64,000 nt of DNA from Halomonas sp. TD01 (GTDB lineage: Bacteria > Pseudomonadota > Gammaproteobacteria > Pseudomonadales > Halomonadaceae). Positions 37,559 through 46,336 of the stretch are shown here, one piece after another. Every line of letters begins with the position of its first letter. Positions within the stretch are counted from its first letter, which is position 1. A model generated the notes under the pieces. It did no database searches. It was not told the origin of the DNA and worked only from the letters and a program-made list of their open reading frames with translations. Made by a program: the position numbers and the translations under genes. Location: the NCBI RefSeq assembly GCF_923868895.1, contig NZ_OV350343.1:434001-498000 (forward strand), read 5' to 3'.

Positions 37559-37852
37559 TTAAGCGGCCTCAAAGTCCAATGGCTGCAGGTCGTCCAAATT
37601 AATTGTGCTGCGAGCCATCCATAGGTCATACATGTCCTGCATTGATAGCCAGCTCTCCGGGGTACGTCCGAGAACCTTCGACAAGCGCAAAGACATTTCG
37701 GGGCTAATGCCACTATCCCCTTTGAGCAACCGTGACAAGGTGGATGGTGAAACGCCCAAGTTGGAAGCAAGCTGACGGGAGCTGATACCAAAAGGTTCTA
37801 GGTACACTTCCCGAATAAATTCGCCGGGATGCGGCGGATTATGCATCGTCAT
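37559..37852 (-). CDS. higA: HigA-family antitoxin
   Basis: A 97-residue helix-turn-helix antitoxin of the HigA/VapI type. It starts [20 protein letters not shown], and the XRE domain [20 protein letters not shown] binds DNA. It neutralises the HigB toxin and, with it, represses the operon. Its start overlaps the toxin's stop by one base, in the toxin-first order typical of higBA. The stop codon overlaps GTTAAGC, which fits the integron core consensus on the complementary strand (GCTTAAC), but no full attC could be built from the sequence after it. Confidence 0.9.
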
Positions 37853-38130
37853 TAGTGATAATCCTCATAATCAAGAATGTACGCGTTGCCATCTCGAAAT
37901 TCGAACGTCATGCGCCAATTTCCGTTGATCCAAATTGACCACCGCGCTTTGTCTCTCCCCTTCAACGGGTGGAGCCTAAAACCAGGGATATCCATATCTT
38001 CTACTGACACGGCCGTGTCCAGAGCGGCAAGCTGCATACGCAATTTCTTGGCATGATCCGCCTGTATACCAGCGGTGCTGCCACTAGCGTAGAACCGCTT
38101 GAGTCCCTTGTGGCGGAATGATTTAATCAT
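37852..38130 (-). CDS. higB: HigB-family toxin (RelE superfamily mRNA endonuclease)
   Basis: HigB cleaves mRNA at the ribosome when not bound by HigA. The ATG at 38130 gives [14 protein letters not shown], the usual HigB N-terminus; a GTG two codons upstream (38136) is an alternative. The 92-residue protein has [40 protein letters not shown] and ends LDYEDYH, all typical of the family including the C-terminal His. Nothing suggests inactivation. Confidence 0.9.
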
Positions 38131-38136
38131 AAGCAC

Positions 38137-38165
38137 ATCATAGCTCGTTGCGCACCGCGCAACAA
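38137..38165 (-). promoter_or_regulatory. Probable higBA promoter with overlapping palindromic operator
   Basis: On the minus strand TTGTTG (38165-38160) and TATGAT (38142-38137) are 17 bp apart, a good sigma-70 match. A 7-bp perfect inverted repeat, GTTGCGC and GCGCAAC with three bases between (38147-38163), lies in the spacer, as expected for an autoregulatory HigBA site. A start about 7 bases after the -10 would fall at or near the higB ATG, leaving little or no leader. Confidence 0.55.
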
Positions 38166-38239
38166 CCAGATTTATATTATTTGAGTTACCCGAGCCTGAG
38201 CCAACAACTTACCCTTTCGGGATTTGGAGTAGCGCTAAT

Positions 38240-38423
38240 CTAATAGTGATAACGACACAAAATAATCGTAATCGCATTATCATCAACTGCGTAGACGAAT
38301 CGATTCGTATCATCTATACGTCGCGACCAAAAACCAGCTAAGTTTTCCTTTAACGGCGCTGGTTTGCCAGTGAAGGGAATCGCTCCAGGATTCGTCAGTC
38401 CATGACAGTAATCGGCGACTCAT
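38240..38423 (-). pseudogene. yoeB: yoeB toxin remnant with internal frameshifting deletion
   Basis: The ATG at 38423 begins MSRRLLSWTDESWSDSLHWQ, the N-terminus of YoeB/Txe endonucleases. After about 20 codons the frame goes wrong; the C-terminal half appears in another frame of the same DNA (GKPAPLKENLAGFWSRRID, then FVYAVDD and a terminal CRYHY before TAG at 38240-38242). YoeB is about 84 residues; this remnant has room for 61, and 184 is not a multiple of three. About 70 bp from the middle are therefore missing. The CTTCACTGGCAAACC at the joint could have coded for either side (LHWQT or FTGKP), suggesting deletion between short similar stretches. No active toxin is expected. Confidence 0.82.
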
Positions 38424-38550
38424 CCATCAAGTCTCTGCGGGTTACCTTACCTGCTTTGAATTGTTCAATTGAGCGATTCAAATGCTCAGAATTCGCCGAT
38501 GAGCGCAGAGCGCCGATAGTTTTTACGCAGCAAAGCAGATACAAAGGCAT
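38395..38550 (-). pseudogene. yefM: yefM antitoxin remnant (C-terminal part)
   Basis: A 51-codon minus-strand frame contains IGALRSSANSEHLNRSIEQF and KAGKVTRRDLMDE, matching the C-terminal toxin-binding part of YefM/Phd antitoxins. The DNA-binding N-terminal half (about 50 residues) is absent and the sequence upstream belongs to the end of parE and a possible attC half. The frame overlaps the start of the yoeB remnant as in intact yefM-yoeB pairs. Both genes are damaged, so the pair is decayed. Confidence 0.75.
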
Positions 38551-38573
38551 CCGAGTGCCACGCCTGGTTTAAT
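38546..38573 (-). other. Possible truncated attC half-site after parE
   Basis: Immediately after the parE stop, the minus strand reads ATTAAACCAGGCGTGGCACT and then CGGATGCC. This resembles the left half of classic integron attC sites (core, then GGCGT, then CGGA-GCC). The core has one mismatch to RYYYAAC and the right half is missing where the yefM remnant begins. Suggestive only. Confidence 0.3.
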
Positions 38574-38575
38574 GA

Positions 38576-38857
38576 CTACCGTTCACCTTTAAGACCATGC
38601 CATACCCGGAGAACAATGATGGCAGTGGCATGGACTGAATATCGAACGACGTATTTTCCGAAAACCATATCTCGAACAGAGTCAGGCACCGGTGCCATTT
38701 CAACCGGTGCGCCCATATTGGGGAAGCCTGGAAGTAATTCGATTTTGCCAACAAGCTCGGCGGCAATCCTGGCCGCCGCAGACGGGTTGTGATCCGCAAT
38801 GAACTCTCGGAGGCGTTTCAAATCGTCAATGGCTTCGGCCGTGTAAACCAGTTTCAC
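38576..38857 (-). CDS. parE: ParE/RelE-family toxin
   Basis: A 93-residue toxin with the ParE pattern: MKLVYTAEAIDDLKRLREFI, ARIAAELVGKIELLPGFPNM, then the strand region VFGKYVVRYSVHATAIIVLR and WHGLKGER at the end. ParE toxins typically act on DNA gyrase, while RelE relatives cut mRNA; the sequence alone favours ParE. Its start overlaps the antitoxin's stop by 4 bp. It appears intact. Confidence 0.85.
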   Translation of the reverse strand: MKLVYTAEAIDDLKRLREFIADHNPSAAARIAAELVGKIELLPGFPNMGAPVEMAPVPDSVRDMVFGKYVVRYSVHATAIIVLRVWHGLKGER

Positions 38858-39126
38858 TTACCTGACCCTGGCGCATCCTGCTCGTTTTCGGTTCCCCAGC
38901 TATTAAGCCAGCTGTGAACCTCGCTGGCATCAACAACCTTGCCTTGGGCAGCAGACTCCATTGCCTCTAACGTTTGTTTCCACCGCTCTTGCTCAAGCTG
39001 CTGCTTTGCTATGTATTCCGACAATGCCTGGTTGATCACCCAGCCTTTGCTCCGGTGTAACCTGCTAGCGATTGCTTCCAGGTGTTGTTCAACGTCTGCT
39101 TGAAGGCGGACTGTGGTGACGCTCAT
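38854..39126 (-). CDS. parD: Ribbon-helix-helix antitoxin of the ParD/CopG type
   Basis: A 90-residue protein with an N-terminal ribbon-helix-helix (MSVTTVRLQADVEQHLEAIA, then LHRSKGWVINQALSEYI) for DNA binding. A helical, acidic C-terminal tail wraps the toxin (KVVDASEVHSWLNSWGTENE). It precedes the toxin, the normal parDE order. The start lies about 65 bp after the integron-type core at 39192-39198, as expected for the first gene of a cassette. Confidence 0.85.
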   Translation of the reverse strand: MSVTTVRLQADVEQHLEAIASRLHRSKGWVINQALSEYIAKQQLEQERWKQTLEAMESAAQGKVVDASEVHSWLNSWGTENEQDAPGSGK

Positions 39127-39955: not shown

Positions 39956-40822
39956 TTAACTGAGTGATATACACGCCAACTCCCCTCCAAACCATTGCTG
40001 TTTTAGCCCGCGCTGTTTTTCCAGCAGGGCTAAGTATGGGCGTAGGGGGTGGTGGCTGGGCAGCGTAACGTTCCGTTGGCGTAGGCGGCGTTGGAACGAC
40101 AGCTGTTCGGCGGGTTGGTGCAAGGGCGTGACGTGCTGGGTGAGCCATTCGATGTCAGGTAGTAGTAGATGCGTGGCGCCGCTGTCTAGGGCTAGGGTCA
40201 CGCCTTTGGCGTCGAAGTCACCGGCGTAGAGGTGTGGCCGATTGGTTTTGCGCCATGCTTTTGTCAGTTCGGCAAAGCCGCCGCCGTAGTGGCTGTCGCC
40301 ACGATAGACCACCAGCGGGTTAGCGTAGCCGCTAAGCGCTGCTATCTCTGGCGAAAACGCGTAGAAGCTATCCAGGTTTTCCACCTGAACGAGCGCGCCA
40401 AACACCGCCAGCTTAAGGCCGCTTACATCAACATCGCGTATGCTGCGCGGCTCTGGCACAAGCCATGCAGAGGGCTGTGACGGCAAGTTGATCAGCACGC
40501 GTTTTGCACGAGGGCCTTCGCGGCGGCTTTTATCCTCCTCAACGCCTTCTGCTGCTTGGGCGGTACTGCTTAAGCCACTTAACGAGCGCCCTAGCGGTGC
40601 CAAACGGTCACTCTCCAACATGCTGTTGATTTGCGCCACGAGAGTGGCGTCAAAGCGCAGCGCTTGGTTGGAAATCCGCATGGTCAGATCAATATCTTGC
40701 TGATGGCACCACGCCACCACATCTTCTACCCACTTGCCACGGGATTTTTCTACCACGGGCTGGCGGTTAAGCTCTCGAACAACACTGTTAAGCCCGGCAC
40801 GGGCGCGGCCTGATAACGTCAT
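39956..40822 (-). CDS. JetD/MksG-like Toprim nuclease subunit of an SMC defence complex
   Basis: A 288-residue protein with a helical and winged-helix-like N-terminal half and a C-terminal Toprim-like half. The likely catalytic residues are Glu148 in QVENLDSFYAF and the DxD pair Asp202/Asp204 in LYAGDFDAKGVTLA, matching the E...DxD layout of JetD nucleases that cut plasmid DNA for Wadjet. It is shorter than typical JetD (near 380-400 residues) and I do not see the usual N-terminal domain. It is the last gene of the operon and overlaps the kleisin-like gene by 4 bp. Assignment is by motif and context. Confidence 0.72.
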   Translation of the reverse strand: MTLSGRARAGLNSVVRELNRQPVVEKSRGKWVEDVVAWCHQQDIDLTMRISNQALRFDATLVAQINSMLESDRLAPLGRSLSGLSSTAQAAEGVEEDKSRREGPRAKRVLINLPSQPSAWLVPEPRSIRDVDVSGLKLAVFGALVQVENLDSFYAFSPEIAALSGYANPLVVYRGDSHYGGGFAELTKAWRKTNRPHLYAGDFDAKGVTLALDSGATHLLLPDIEWLTQHVTPLHQPAEQLSFQRRLRQRNVTLPSHHPLRPYLALLEKQRGLKQQWFGGELACISLS

Positions 40823-42048
40823 ACTGCCACCGCCAGTGCGACGTCATGAATCAGGCGCAGATCGTTAAATGGGCTGGCCGGTGATTCGTCTTGGTGTAGG
40901 CGAAACGCCTGCTGCTCGCTACGCGGCAAGCCCTGATATTCGGAGATAACCTGAAACAGCCAAATTTCATCGGGCCAGTCGAGGTGGCTGTCATACAGAT
41001 AAGCGAGGGCGCTAATCGGCTCGGCGGGGGGCTGATCTAACACCGCAAGATAAAAGCGTTCGACATCTTGCTTAAGCGCCTGCTGGCGTGCAGCGGCAAG
41101 ATTATCTTCCGGCGTGAGCGCAGGCACGGCCGACTCAACGGTTTGCGTGGCATGGCGTGGGGTTGGCAATTCATGCAACAGTTCTGCCAGCACGCGGCTT
41201 TCCAGCGCGCGATCTAACGCTGGCGCAGCGGCGGGGTGTAACGGCGCAGCGTGGTTAAATAACGCCGGTACATCGCTGCGTTTGGCGTAATTACTCGGCA
41301 CAAAGCCTGGGTGTTCGCGCATAAACGCGACCATGCCGCTGATCAGGCGGCTGCGTGACTGCTGTTTGCGAAAGCGTGCCATTAGCTCAATTAACCGCCG
41401 TTGCACTTCCCGCAGGCTGGTGTAATGGTGGCTTAAGCGCTGCTGTAGCTGACTGATCAGTAGCTTGCGCAGGCTGCCATCACTGCCTACTAACGCAATC
41501 AGTTCGTCGAAGTCGATCAGCGCCAGGCCATCCAACAACCTAACAATCTGCTTCTGGGCGCGGTCGTTTTCGCGGATCTTATCGCTCAACTGGCTAACAA
41601 AGCCGAAATCGCTATTGAGCCGCTGCCAAAGGCTATCAATAGCATCGGCAAAGCGGCCGTTTAGATCGTCAACTTCCTGACGCAGGCGCAGCAGCTGCTG
41701 CTCCTGTCGCCAATGCTCACCTCGGCTGCGGGCTTCACGGTAGCTGTGCACCAACGAACGCACCAGCTCAAGGGTTTCCGCAACATCGGCATTCACATGA
41801 CGGCGGGTTTCGTCGGCGAGCATTTCAGCGATCAGCTCGCGCACTTTAGGGGAGAGCTTTACGCCGCTCTGCTCATCGGGCCGCCATAACACTCGAGCAG
41901 CCAACAGCTTGCGCAGCGCACTGTCGTTGAGTCCGTCTAACGGCACGTCATCGCGAGTGTAGCCCTGCATCAGTCGTTCGGCATGCTTGCCCAACAGCGC
42001 CAGCCGCTCAGCGCCGGTTTTTAGCAGGCGGCTTTCCAGTTCGCTCAC
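40819..42048 (-). CDS. JetA/MksF-like kleisin subunit
   Basis: A 409-residue, mostly helical, charged protein with no enzymatic motif. A winged-helix-like N-terminus (about residues 1-75) precedes a long helical region (EQQLLRLRQEVDDLNGRFAD, then VQRRLIELMARFRKQQ) and a C-terminal domain. This matches MukF/MksF/JetA kleisins that bridge the two SMC heads. The gene lies between the MksE-like and Toprim genes, overlapping each by 4 bp. The assignment depends more on position and shape than on a diagnostic motif. Confidence 0.65.
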   Translation of the reverse strand: MSELESRLLKTGAERLALLGKHAERLMQGYTRDDVPLDGLNDSALRKLLAARVLWRPDEQSGVKLSPKVRELIAEMLADETRRHVNADVAETLELVRSLVHSYREARSRGEHWRQEQQLLRLRQEVDDLNGRFADAIDSLWQRLNSDFGFVSQLSDKIRENDRAQKQIVRLLDGLALIDFDELIALVGSDGSLRKLLISQLQQRLSHHYTSLREVQRRLIELMARFRKQQSRSRLISGMVAFMREHPGFVPSNYAKRSDVPALFNHAAPLHPAAAPALDRALESRVLAELLHELPTPRHATQTVESAVPALTPEDNLAAARQQALKQDVERFYLAVLDQPPAEPISALAYLYDSHLDWPDEIWLFQVISEYQGLPRSEQQAFRLHQDESPASPFNDLRLIHDVALAVAV

Positions 42049-42674
42049 AGCAGCGCCTCCTGGGCACCCTCTTCCTGCTCCACGTCAATGGGCAAGTTTT
42101 CCTCATCGCGGATAAAGCGCACCACCTCGATCAGGTAATCAATTTTACCGGTGACCACAAACACCTGACGCTCAGTGTGGGGCTGAAGCAAGTAGCCATG
42201 CTCTTTTAAGCGCTTAAATAACTGCTTTACTTGGGCATCCAGCTGGTCGCTCTGGGAGCCAAAGAAGCTGTCTGTGGCTAGCCTTTCCAAACGCTCACGC
42301 AGGCTTTGGTTGTCTTCGCACTTAGCGCTGAACTCTGCGGGCTTGAGCACGTCGCCAGGGGCCGCCAAGGTGTCGCGGCCTAGCGCCTCTTGAACCAGTT
42401 GCAGCCATTCCAGCAGCGGCAACAGGCTGTTGACCGTGTCACTCAGCTGGCGCGATAGCTGCTCCCGAGCGGCTTCGTTCAGCTGTCGCCAAGCTAAAAA
42501 GTAGACACTGCCTTCATCATTGCTCGCCAGCCTGCGGTTGAGCGGGCGCAGATAGTCATCAATCGCGTCGCGGGTCTCTTCGTTGGCTAAGTGGCGAAAG
42601 GCATTGTCATCACTAACGGCGCAGACAAACTCGCCAGCCAGCAAGCGTTCCAGTAGCGGGCCGTGTTCGATCAT
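42045..42674 (-). CDS. JetB/MksE-like accessory subunit
   Basis: A 209-residue protein resembling MukE/MksE, the tandem winged-helix subunit that binds the kleisin. It has FLAWRQLNEAAREQLSRQLS near the N-terminus and a C-terminal winged-helix pattern with QVKQLFKRLKEHGYLLQPHT, VFVVTGKIDYLIEVVRFI and an acidic tail. Start and stop each overlap a neighbour by 4 bp. Such size and position, between an SMC ATPase and a kleisin, are expected for MksE. Confidence 0.75.
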   Translation of the reverse strand: MIEHGPLLERLLAGEFVCAVSDDNAFRHLANEETRDAIDDYLRPLNRRLASNDEGSVYFLAWRQLNEAAREQLSRQLSDTVNSLLPLLEWLQLVQEALGRDTLAAPGDVLKPAEFSAKCEDNQSLRERLERLATDSFFGSQSDQLDAQVKQLFKRLKEHGYLLQPHTERQVFVVTGKIDYLIEVVRFIRDEENLPIDVEQEEGAQEALL

Positions 42675-45600
42675 GCGGTCACCTCTTGCTGACGCTCCTT
42701 GATCCGCTGCGCAAGCGGGCTAAGGCGCGGTTCAATACGTTTTAGCAGGCGCTGGTTGGGCTGGTTAGGGTCCCGCTCAATCAGGTAGCGATTAGCAAAC
42801 AGCAGCAGCACATCTGATTCCGGGTTGGGGAAAGCCCCCACAATATGAATGCGGTTGCTGTCACAAGCGTCGAACAACTTTTCGACATTGTGATAGGCCA
42901 GCGTGCCGATTTCATCAATCGGCCAATGGATAGCGATTTGCGCATCCCCCCGCAGCAGCCGCGTAAACGCCAGCAGGAACTTACACAAAATCAGGTAGGC
43001 CATGCCATGGCTGGAAGACTCCAACAACTGGCGGTCATTTTTGATCACCAGGTCAGTGCCGCCTTCGTTTAGGTGCAGCTCAAGGCGCAGCAGGCTTTCA
43101 AAGCTGTACTGCTGGTCACTGCGCAGCAAATCGACCACATCGGCCAGCGCATTAAGGTAATCGTCACTGGGCAGCATCTGGCCAGATTCCCGCCACGCTT
43201 TGTAGCGCTGGGCAAACAACTTTAAAGGCTCCCAGAAACCCAGCTCATCGATCGTCGATTGAATGCGCACTTCCGCTTTGCTGATGCCTTCTAAGCGCAG
43301 GTCATCCGCCACTTCGTCGGAAAGCCGACGGCTTTGCGCACTGATACGGCGATTTAAGTCGCGGAAGACAATAAAGAATTTATCCAGGTCATCGCTTAAA
43401 TTGCGCCCTTCCTGAATCAGCTGCTGCTGTTGATCTTCCAATAGTTTTAGCATGTCGCGCAGCAGCGGCAACACTAGTCGCGGGCTGTCGTTCGGCAGCT
43501 TCTCGCGTTCGCTTTGCAGTGCATCGGCAAAGCCGCTGCTGGCATCTTTAATCAGTTGGCTTTCTACCTCCAGGCAGCCCCGGCGCAGTTGTTCAAGCTG
43601 CTGATGGCGGCTGGTTAACGCTTGGCGAGCACGCTCAATGCGCTCCTCCATGTCACCTACGGCATCCGCTAAGGGCGCCCCCTCTGAAACGATGTCCAAA
43701 CTTTCTAACTGGGTCAGCAGCGGCTTAAGGGCTTCTACGCTGCCGTGGGCATTTGCGCGCTGAATTTTAAGCTCATTAACCGCTGATTGATGCGCTTCAC
43801 GTGCGGCATGGAAGTCGTTTTTGAGGTGCGCTTTTTCACGTTTCAACTGCTGGTCAAGCTGAACAAGCTCCGCTTCCTGGGCCACCAGCTGGGGCTTGTG
43901 CTGGCTCCACTCCACGCGCATAAAGCGTTGGTACTCGGTGAGTTCTTCCTGGCGAGCGGCGATCTTACGAATGCGGTCACTCTGTTGCTCTAGGCGTTTT
44001 TTCGTTTCCTGAAGCTGCGCGGGGTCCACGCCCTGCTCGGCAAGTTCCTGGCTGAAGGCGGCTTCCAGCTCATTGCGCTGGCGCTGATGTTCCGCGTTGG
44101 CATCGTTGAGCTGCTGCTTGTACTGGCGTAGCTGCGCATCCAGGCTATCCAGCTGGTTTTGCGCATCGGCTTTTAACTCCAGCAGTTGGCCCTGATGGGT
44201 CTCGGCCAGCTCGGCAAGCGACTGGCGTTTCTCTTCACGCAGTTCGGCCTGGGCCTGCTCCTGGCGAGCCAACGCCGCTTGGTGCTCCGCTCGACGTGCC
44301 TGCTGGCGCTTGGTATGGCGCTCTTGCTGCTGGCGGCGAGCCTCAAGGGCATACTCCACTTCCTGTTCGGCACGCTGATACCCCATACGCGCCTGATCTT
44401 GGGCCTCGTCGGCCTGTTGCACCCGTTCGTTGTGCTGCTTTAGGGCTTTTTCGGCAGCGGCACACTCGGCTTGGGCGCGCTGTTTAGCGCCATCCGCCTC
44501 TTCAATCGCCGCCAGCAAACTGGCTTCGTCTTGGGCGTAATCCGGCAGTGCAATGGCGCTTAGGTCCAGCGCTAACCCGAACAGGTCGTCGCTGGCGCCT
44601 TCAGCAAGCTGCGGAGCAAGATCTCGGCGCTCAAGCAGCTCTGGCGCAATAACCTTGCCAAGCTGCTGCTCCCAACCAGGGCGATGGTAGCGCAAGAAGT
44701 GACGCAGGCTGCCTTGTTCGGGGTCACGCTGTTGATAGAGCGCATAGCAGTGTTGTTCGGCCCGCTCACGCTGCTGGCGACACTGCACCAGCTGCTGCTC
44801 GGCGGCGTCGCGTTCACGTTTGTGGCTTTCAAGCTCGCGGCGCAGCGCTTCCAACGTGGCGGTGGCGGCGCTGCGTTCCTGCTGTGTTTGGTCTAAACGC
44901 GCTTGGGCAAGCTCGGCTTCTTGGGCTTCTTCAGCAGTTTGGGTGGGCATCGCCAGTTGCGCTTTTAATTCGGCAAGCTGCTCAACACCCAGTTCTAACT
45001 GCGCTTGATACTCCCCCTCTAACCGCTGGCGCTCTTGCTGATAGCGCTCGTTATGCTGCTGTTCGGCTTGCCATTGCTGCTCTCGGCGCTGCGCTTTTTC
45101 CTCGACCAGGGCATCTATCAATTCCTGGTTTTCTTGAGTTTGGCGGGCAAGTGCTTCGGAAAGCTCGCGTAACCGGCCATCTAAGCGCGCCTGGCTCTCT
45201 TTTACCGCCTCTTGCATGACTTGCAGATGCTTCTGAAGCTGATCACGCTGTTCACGCCACTGGGGCAAGGCGTTGATGTCCCGCTCCAGGCCGGTCATGT
45301 CAGCATCAGCGTAGTGCTCAAACTGGGTTTGCAGGTCATTCAGGCGACGCTGAGTGTGCTGCAAGTCGCTCGCGACTTCACTGTGGCGGTCGTTCAGCTC
45401 ATCGCGCTGCTGGGTGTAGGCATTTTCACGCTGTTGGAATTCACGCTGGTGGCGATTTAACTCACCATCCAGATCCGCAATGCGTTGTTCAGCCTGTTGA
45501 TGATCGGCGCTTAGCTGGGGTTTCAACTGCCAAAGCGTGGTCTCTAAATGGGCCAATTCGCGGTCGATGCCACCAAGCTTAGTCAGCGCGGCTTGCAGCG

Positions 45601-46336
45601 GCTCCAGGCGCATGGACTGGCGCATCTGGGAAATCCACTCCCGCGCTTTGGCACTGCGAATGCGGGTGACCGGCAGCTCGACGCCATCCTCTTCGAAAAT
45701 TGCCGCCAGCATGGTTTTGAGGGTGTCCATCTTGCCCTCTTTCGCATGCACAGCAGACACCAGTTTTTCGATATGACGGATACGCCGTTCAGGGTTAACC
45801 AGGCTAAATTGCGCTGCAATTTGGCGCAATTTTAGGCCATCGCGGCTATTACCGTGAAGCTGGGTGAAGTCGTTTTGGATCACCGAGCGAAACTCGGAGG
45901 TAGCCCCCAACTTAGATGAGACAGGAATCCCGCTGCGGCGCAATCCGCTAGACCACTGTGGGTACTCCAGTGCCAAGGGGCCTTTTTCAGTTTCGATCAG
46001 GTAGTCTTCTGGTCGATAAGGGGCACCGACAAAACGGTACTCCACGCCGCCTTCCTGCTTGCGCGTCAGCACTACTTGGCAAACATTGCCTGCTTCGCGG
46101 CGGTATTCGTAGACCAGATAGCTTTGACGAGTGGGCAAATAGAAGGCATCAAACTTCATGCGAGTTTTCGGCACTACCTTATTGGGCAGTTCGCCATAAA
46201 ACACCGGCACTAACCGCTGAAGCGTGGTTTTGCCTGACGCGTTGGTGCCGCAGATATTGGTGTGGCCATCCACATTGAGCTCAACCACTCCCGACAAGTG
46301 GCCGTGAATCATAACGATGCGTAGCAAATGCGCCAT
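42671..46336 (-). CDS. JetC/MksB-like SMC ATPase (DUF3584 type)
   Basis: The 1221-residue motor subunit has split ABC-ATPase head halves at its ends. Walker A is GTNASGKTTLQRLVPVFYG (about residues 29-47). The signature-like ESSSHGMAYLILCKFLLAF lies near 1108 and Walker B IAIHWPIDEIGTLA near 1139. Between them are long Gln/Glu/Arg-rich coiled coils (about 270-530 and 610-1000) around a hinge-like segment (about 530-600). The N-terminus MAHLLRIVMIHGHLSGVVEL and the signature sequence resemble DUF3584-type proteins rather than classical MukB. The complex is expected to extrude DNA loops and mark small circular DNA for cutting. It is the first gene of the operon; 146 bp upstream hold the promoter. 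Confidence 0.82.
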   Translation of the reverse strand: MAHLLRIVMIHGHLSGVVELNVDGHTNICGTNASGKTTLQRLVPVFYGELPNKVVPKTRMKFDAFYLPTRQSYLVYEYRREAGNVCQVVLTRKQEGGVEYRFVGAPYRPEDYLIETEKGPLALEYPQWSSGLRRSGIPVSSKLGATSEFRSVIQNDFTQLHGNSRDGLKLRQIAAQFSLVNPERRIRHIEKLVSAVHAKEGKMDTLKTMLAAIFEEDGVELPVTRIRSAKAREWISQMRQSMRLEPLQAALTKLGGIDRELAHLETTLWQLKPQLSADHQQAEQRIADLDGELNRHQREFQQRENAYTQQRDELNDRHSEVASDLQHTQRRLNDLQTQFEHYADADMTGLERDINALPQWREQRDQLQKHLQVMQEAVKESQARLDGRLRELSEALARQTQENQELIDALVEEKAQRREQQWQAEQQHNERYQQERQRLEGEYQAQLELGVEQLAELKAQLAMPTQTAEEAQEAELAQARLDQTQQERSAATATLEALRRELESHKRERDAAEQQLVQCRQQRERAEQHCYALYQQRDPEQGSLRHFLRYHRPGWEQQLGKVIAPELLERRDLAPQLAEGASDDLFGLALDLSAIALPDYAQDEASLLAAIEEADGAKQRAQAECAAAEKALKQHNERVQQADEAQDQARMGYQRAEQEVEYALEARRQQQERHTKRQQARRAEHQAALARQEQAQAELREEKRQSLAELAETHQGQLLELKADAQNQLDSLDAQLRQYKQQLNDANAEHQRQRNELEAAFSQELAEQGVDPAQLQETKKRLEQQSDRIRKIAARQEELTEYQRFMRVEWSQHKPQLVAQEAELVQLDQQLKREKAHLKNDFHAAREAHQSAVNELKIQRANAHGSVEALKPLLTQLESLDIVSEGAPLADAVGDMEERIERARQALTSRHQQLEQLRRGCLEVESQLIKDASSGFADALQSEREKLPNDSPRLVLPLLRDMLKLLEDQQQQLIQEGRNLSDDLDKFFIVFRDLNRRISAQSRRLSDEVADDLRLEGISKAEVRIQSTIDELGFWEPLKLFAQRYKAWRESGQMLPSDDYLNALADVVDLLRSDQQYSFESLLRLELHLNEGGTDLVIKNDRQLLESSSHGMAYLILCKFLLAFTRLLRGDAQIAIHWPIDEIGTLAYHNVEKLFDACDSNRIHIVGAFPNPESDVLLLFANRYLIERDPNQPNQRLLKRIEPRLSPLAQRIKERQQEVTA

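Follow-up and report, generated by a model that had tools for sequence, protein, structure and literature searches.

What does an SMC (structural maintenance of chromosomes) operon do with a compact nuclease-like subunit, when several of its relatives keep the rest of the operon and do without that subunit? The question is raised by four genes of Halomonas sp. TD01 within a stretch of 64,000 nt (NZ_OV350343.1, 434,001-498,000 of the forward strand), which we call the window; coordinates are positions within the stretch. As a first-pass annotation made from the sequence had described, four minus-strand open reading frames of 1221, 209, 409 and 288 amino acids (aa) lie at 39956-46336, each neighboring pair sharing 4 bp. 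We refer to them, in their order, as C-B-A-D. The same annotation proposed that the operon represents a separate Wadjet/Mks lineage whose Toprim subunit is compact, and profiles, predicted fold and the conserved C-B-A-D order now support this. The D gene appears to have been lost repeatedly while the C-B-A core was retained. The reading we favor, and hold to be fairly likely, is a loop-extruding, plasmid-cutting complex whose lineage is not among the catalogued types and whose core also has another job, independent of the nuclease.

The core subunits

C (42671-46336, ATG start, 1221 aa) is an SMC ATPase by its reading frame and its Pfam match: residues 8-1187 match DUF3584 (PF12128) with an E-value of 2e-228. 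B (42045-42674, ATG start, 209 aa) is an MksE-like KITE subunit that passes the Pfam MksE family (PF21980) with 33.3 bits against a cut-off of 27, so the initial description of a DUF3584-type SMC beside an MksE-like protein holds. Across 11 aligned C proteins, G30, N32, G35, K36, D1141, E1142 and S1109/G1111 are invariant; we take these to be the Walker A motif (G30-x-N32..G35-K36), the Walker B motif (D1141-E1142) and the signature region (S1109/G1111). Judged from these matches, C qualifies as the SMC ATPase and B as the KITE protein of the broad Wadjet/MksBEFG kind. A (40819-42048, GTG start, 409 aa) is a putative kleisin on account of its position and length.

For comparison with canonical Wadjet we used 15 of 18 fetched stretches, leaving out three in which the frames were unclear (L193, L202, L203); their sub-clade labels denote sub-clades only and not Wadjet types. 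A set of MksB-like proteins was picked by eye from L231-L234 (of 12 MksE stretches) and L068. The length of C is not unusual, since the SMC proteins of the 15 canonical loci have 1085-1223 aa. In profile comparisons, C matched pooled JetC at 98.5% and the MksB-like set at 99.4%, over only 319 and 196 columns respectively, whereas matches between JetC sub-clades, at 99.7-100%, covered about 1000 columns (two comparisons made). B matched pooled JetB at 74.5% and the MksE-like set also at about 75%, and reached 0.1% against the set from operons of D-C-A-B order described below.

No Pfam family matched A above its cut-off. The best profile comparison for A, at 46.8% (E-value 2e-4), concerned its N-terminal region and seven pooled proteins that are MksF-like or occupy the kleisin position in D-C-A-B operons, and the remaining comparisons gave 0.1-18%; mismatched subunits, used as a control, gave 0.1-4.9% in the A comparison and up to 7.5% in the comparison with the MksB-like set. 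A reached JetA at 0.9%, and the JetA sub-clades also reached each other at just 0.2-0.3%. Because even the JetA sub-clades do not find each other in this way, A is a kleisin by position and not by proof.

The nuclease-like subunit

D (39956-40822, ATG start, 288 aa) is a compact Toprim nuclease-like protein that passes Pfam DUF7281 (PF23947) with 42.4 bits against a cut-off of 27. The metal-site residues singled out by the first-pass annotation, E148, D202 and D204, are invariant in 25 aligned proteins, and the pattern EN...DxDxxG is retained in 64/64 full-length D genes from the 80 loci described below. The predicted structure of D supports a Toprim fold of the Top6A/Spo11/JetD kind, the very feature whose absence from a confident model had been named as the outcome that would speak against the proposal; the VIA-align scores for the D model are re-scorings of Foldseek's own top chains and are not independent of Foldseek. 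With its E...DxD metal site, D answers to the Toprim nuclease subunit of the broad Wadjet/MksBEFG kind.

A C-terminal acid-Gln-Glu motif ([DE]QE) is found in 15/15 canonical JetDs and also in 5/5 DUF7281-type proteins encoded in operons whose genes are ordered differently. Two conserved glutamates of JetD, equivalent to E349/E351 of MksG, have been proposed as alternative nucleophiles (PMC10123090, excerpt), and we infer that the acid-Gln-Glu motif corresponds to these. Within the C-B-A-D clade the first residue of the motif is non-acidic in 14/14 D proteins, while the third is Gln in seven, including that of the window, and Glu in seven. In Top6, a Glu-to-Gln change in a conserved clasp beside the metal site (E342Q) is reported to break DNA more readily than the wild type (PMC13040014, excerpt).

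The host is related to Vreelandella/Halomonas, and its nearest named hits are Vreelandella zhaodongensis (C 99% identical) and a D from V. alkaliphila (97%). In V. zhaodongensis (L107), B and A are 99-100% identical to those of the window and D is 88% identical; for this pair, synonymous divergence is 0.375 in the first half of D versus 0.135 in C. We do not claim that D is swapped between strains, as the excess synonymous divergence occurs in only 1 of 4 pairs.

Placement outside the catalogued Wadjet types

With the PADLOC Jet profiles, C matched JetC1 at 2.7e-5 across 42 residues, JetC2 at 0.019 and JetC3 at 0.45, D matched JetD3 at 0.033 across 63 residues, and A and B had no match up to an E-value of 1. 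All of the canonical JetDs scanned as a positive control (10/10) reached 6.2e-37 or better; these ten are all type I, and types II and III were tested through the PADLOC profiles only. A search against Jet and Muk profiles had been suggested as a check on the proposal, and no Jet type I-III profile matches over its length. By the PADLOC JetA-D profiles the window operon does not belong to Wadjet types I-III, and its C-B-A-D order is not their A-B-C-D order. Taken together, the profile results, the fold predicted for D and the gene order support a lineage of the MksBEFG/Wadjet kind that would stand outside the catalogued types.

Two other assignments were rejected. C has no match to PF04310, the MukB N-terminal family, up to an E-value of 1, and the operon includes a Toprim gene, so this is not MukBEF. 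The best Lamassu match, to LmuB at 6.2e-5, falls within residues 605-913 of C, probably in coiled coil, and none of the four proteins has a listed match to LmuA.

Relatives were found through C, which gave 444 matching stretches in species genomes, and what we call loci are the best 80 of these 444. Going by the ends of the genes, 80/80 loci have the C-B-A order, and this together with the strength of the DUF3584 match of C indicates that the arrangement is not due to chance. In L131 the longest A frame begins upstream of B, and L156, L158 and L159 have a broken or short C. The full C-B-A-D order recurs in six distant gammaproteobacterial loci (L071-L076) in which C is 23-36% identical. Another distant gammaproteobacterium has a C-B-A operon (L239, 3228-8856) with no D match after it. 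In Ectothiorhodospira (L134, L136, L144) C is 63-64% identical and falls inside the Halomonadaceae part of a quick tree, which suggests horizontal transfer. In the records we saw, the proteins are named "ATP-binding protein", "hypothetical protein" or "DUF7281 domain-containing protein".

Proteins of the DUF7281 family adjoin an SMC gene at 14/14 places, in 13/398 genomes, and these places show three layouts, namely C-B-A-D, A-B-C-D (L068) and D-C-A-B (L069, L070). SMC operons with a DUF7281-type nuclease in the order A-B-C-D lie at 4356-9876 in L068 and at 1174-6567 in L234, the latter below the DUF7281 cut-off. Those in the order D-C-A-B lie at 4479-10349 in L069 and 9255-15005 in L070, both below the cut-off, and at 1401-7175 in L235, which was placed by alignment. 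The best PADLOC Jet match in L068-L070 is to JetD1, at 5e-8.

Loss of D and selection on the core

The status of D was read in 76 of the 80 loci, four that end at or just after A being left out: D is full length in 64, short in four (L104, L150, L156, L158) and missing from eight. The D-less operons belong to two Onishia, four Chromohalobacter, one H. litopenaei and one Arsukibacterium. Their C, B and A are full length in all eight, about 4.1 kb downstream of A is covered in every case, and D was detected elsewhere in 0/8 of these draft genomes by a search that finds it in 2/2 controls. Break points vary among the Chromohalobacter species, and in C. canadensis and C. moromii a truncated-globin-like gene (L117/L118, 11587-12009; PF01152, E-value 1e-28 for the C. 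canadensis copy) stands in D's place.

We built a FastTree tree of 74 C proteins, excluding L156 and L159, whose C is broken, and the four loci ending at A. It needs six changes between presence and absence of D, five of them forced by starred branches, and D-bearing and D-less operons stand side by side in Onishia, Chromohalobacter and Arsukibacterium. Some of the changes could be gains. The apparent repeated loss of D complicates the plasmid-cutting reading.

The core is under strong purifying selection in the D-less pairs that we computed. Pairwise ratios of nonsynonymous to synonymous substitution (dN/dS), obtained with our own Nei-Gojobori script, are 0.02-0.09 for the core in six Chromohalobacter pairs and 0.04-0.07 in one Onishia pair, similar to those of D-bearing pairs; D itself has 0.07-0.24. 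These figures cover Chromohalobacter and Onishia only, as H. litopenaei and Arsukibacterium have no D-less partner. The proportion of synonymous differences (pS) in the globin gene is 0.156 (16/103 sites), versus 0.28 for C, 0.28 for B and 0.21 for A in the same Chromohalobacter pair, suggesting that D has been replaced for much of the period since the two species diverged and that the core stayed constrained.

Proposed mechanism

In Wadjet, a dimeric motor is reported to extrude DNA loops, to collide with itself on a small circle and thereby to activate JetD (PMC10586767, excerpt). By analogy, C, B and A would form an ATP-driven loop-extruding core that reels in DNA. D would bind the core, which would present a bent circle to it, and once extrusion is complete on a small circular DNA the Toprim dimer of D would cut both strands. 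Small plasmids would be destroyed in this way, with the chromosome and very large circles spared. Loop extrusion, complex formation, plasmid cleavage and size sensing are predicted here from homology with characterized systems, and the D-independent role of the core from its evolution. Even without D the core would serve some purpose, probably on the chromosome, and this may be why it persists after D is lost; the simplest second role would be a chromosome-related one, like that of P. aeruginosa MksBEF (PMC10586767, excerpt).

Several points weigh against this reading. Every activity in it is a prediction. A is a probable kleisin by position and length, and its kleisin identity is not established. 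Compared with the three canonical sub-clades separately, C finds two of the three JetC profiles (95.8, 97.0 and 2.0%) and B one of the three JetB profiles (65.9, 0.2 and 0.9%). D has 288 aa versus 375-439 aa in JetD, a difference in size that the first-pass annotation had pointed out and the 15 canonical loci, with the usual A-B-C-D order, bear out. The shortfall is mostly ahead of the Toprim core, which begins at profile column 144 in D versus 275 in JetD, and D has K-Q275-Q where JetD has acid-Gln-Glu. On the quick tree, the two Chromohalobacter that share the globin gene do not group as sisters, and the D-replaced state may therefore have spread by recombination. Loss of C with D kept was seen at 0/14 DUF7281 places, and because relatives were found through C, these places are the only ones where it would be visible. 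The DUF3584 family is above its cut-off in 30/36 same-genus relatives, and defence systems are not usually conserved so widely across a genus.

Small plasmids are a further point of this sort. Two genomes of the genus with an intact operon, G002 and G012, which are the two whose extra contigs we looked at, hold plasmid-like contigs of 4.4, 11.2 and 18.1 kb. The 4.4 kb contig has Rep3 and MobA genes, with the Rep frame open across its ends; the 11.2 kb contig has Rep3 and relaxase genes and 55-bp identical ends; and the 18.1 kb contig has an RPA initiator. These contigs argue against a strict plasmid barrier.

Alternative explanations

A bolder version of the favored reading, which we regard as tentative, is a chromosome-acting loop extruder with a detachable Top6A/Spo11-like nuclease. 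It would be condensin and plasmid killer at once, several stages of nuclease loss being visible within one family and the acid-Gln-Glu motif being replaced by K/R-Q-Q. Given that replacement, cleavage by D, or its restraint, would depend on a site of different construction.

It is also possible, and in our view rather unlikely, that the operon primarily encodes a chromosome condensin working beside Smc-ScpAB, with D as an accessory Top6A-like nuclease that acts on the chromosome, such as where its DNA is catenated or over-looped, and with little or no plasmid restriction. The near-core distribution in the genus speaks for this, as the type I-like JetD_C profile matches only 4/36 of the same genus relatives. 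So do the purifying selection on cores that lack D, the coexistence of small plasmid-like contigs with the operon, and a GntR gene upstream of the operon in the window, which lies within the same 20-kb stretch in 18/29 genus loci. However, a condensin probably exists already, as ScpA is encoded in 37/37 genus genomes, host included. The host genome, a single contig of 4.14 Mb with one DUF3584 match and no JetD_C match, encodes ScpA by profile search, and the usual Smc-ScpAB is probably present in it. Six of the genus relatives have no DUF3584 gene above the cut-off, and the triad of D is retained wherever D is full length (64/64); both points speak against this reading.

Mobile copies also count against a primarily chromosomal role and fit conflict between elements. 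With tblastn, C matched 28/72,556 plasmid records, none of them with more than 80% of the query in one place. Four intact-looking genes in C-B-A-D order are present on three of the five plasmids that we examined, pMAQU02 (213 kb), pB18-1 (275 kb) and pAZI09 (397 kb), and on pLA16-1 (110 kb) C and A are each annotated as two pieces. Four such genes are also present in the record of Dolichospermum phage Dfl-JY45 (209 kb, PP438435.1; L249, 5968-12323), with DUF7281 at 1e-33 and DUF3584 at 7e-196. Circles larger than about 100 kb reportedly escape Wadjet (PMC10586767, excerpt), and if this lineage does likewise, large mobile elements could use the operon as a weapon against smaller rivals. An Enterobacter IncHI2A plasmid holds a 229-aa DUF3584-like piece (L248, 6965-7654) with two IS630-like transposase genes directly after it; 13 large enterobacterial plasmids have a match that equals it in extent and identity.

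Next to the operon, between D and an RNase Z-like gene, the window holds a HigB-like toxin paired with a helix-turn-helix protein and a ParE toxin paired with a ribbon-helix-helix protein (37559-39126). This interval holds different genes in relatives and looks like a variable hot spot.

These toxin-antitoxin genes and the phage record could suggest an anti-phage system, in which the core would sense circularised or concatemeric phage DNA and D would cut it or abort the cell. We think this improbable: the phage is 1/50,697 phage records, 110 pattern matches to viral contigs included no relative, no PHROGs family matched, and those relatives whose function is known target plasmids (PMC10123090 and PMC10586767, excerpts). 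Least probable, and very doubtful to us, is an ordinary Wadjet of type I, II or III that diverged until the profiles miss it, for although D matches JetD_C weakly (Pfam, E-value 0.19), as it does JetD3, and plasmid-borne D relatives reach DUF2399 at 3.5e-6 (above cut-off; one is annotated DUF2399) and JetD_C at 4.6e-4 (below cut-off), the PADLOC matches are confined to short stretches that canonical JetDs far exceed, the match of C to JetC spans a third of what JetC sub-clades share, and the C-B-A order never varies among the loci.

Comparison with known systems

Among the papers listed by our literature searches on DUF7281, a type IV Wadjet and similar terms, we found no account of this lineage, and likewise none of the operons that combine a DUF7281-type nuclease with A-B-C-D or D-C-A-B order, although an earlier mention is possible. 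The window member, one of a lineage of 444 matching stretches, goes unrecognised by the PADLOC Wadjet profiles, and this matters for surveys that count anti-plasmid systems and for plasmid engineering in relatives of Halomonas.

Compared with Wadjet type I and MksBEFG (JetABCD; MksBEFG of C. glutamicum), the window operon differs in having the order C-B-A-D instead of A-B-C-D and no profile match over length, and JetD is longer and has acid-Gln-Glu where the D proteins here have x-Q-Q or x-Q-E. The A-B-C-D (L068, L234) and D-C-A-B (L069, L070, L235) operons likewise have a DUF7281-type nuclease beside an SMC gene; they differ in gene order, in an SMC of 923-1013 aa and in retaining acid-Gln-Glu in 5/5. 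DNA topoisomerase VI subunit A and Spo11 may share the fold of D, but D is coupled to an SMC core in one operon, with no Top6B among the four proteins.

The likeness to MksBEF of Pseudomonas and relatives is closer in some respects, since B passes the Pfam MksE cut-off and C resembles the MksB-like set in the profile comparison. The window SMC is set apart by its full-length DUF3584 match and by its size of 1221 aa versus 917-943 aa in five MksB-like genes picked by eye, and the order MksF-MksE-MksB is the reverse of the C-B-A core. P. aeruginosa MksBEF likely arose through loss of JetD (PMC10586767, excerpt). In the lineage described here loss of D seems to have been repeated among near relatives, which makes such a transition testable with natural pairs that have and lack the nuclease. 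In this respect MksBEF and the window-type operon are alike, as both can exist without the nuclease.

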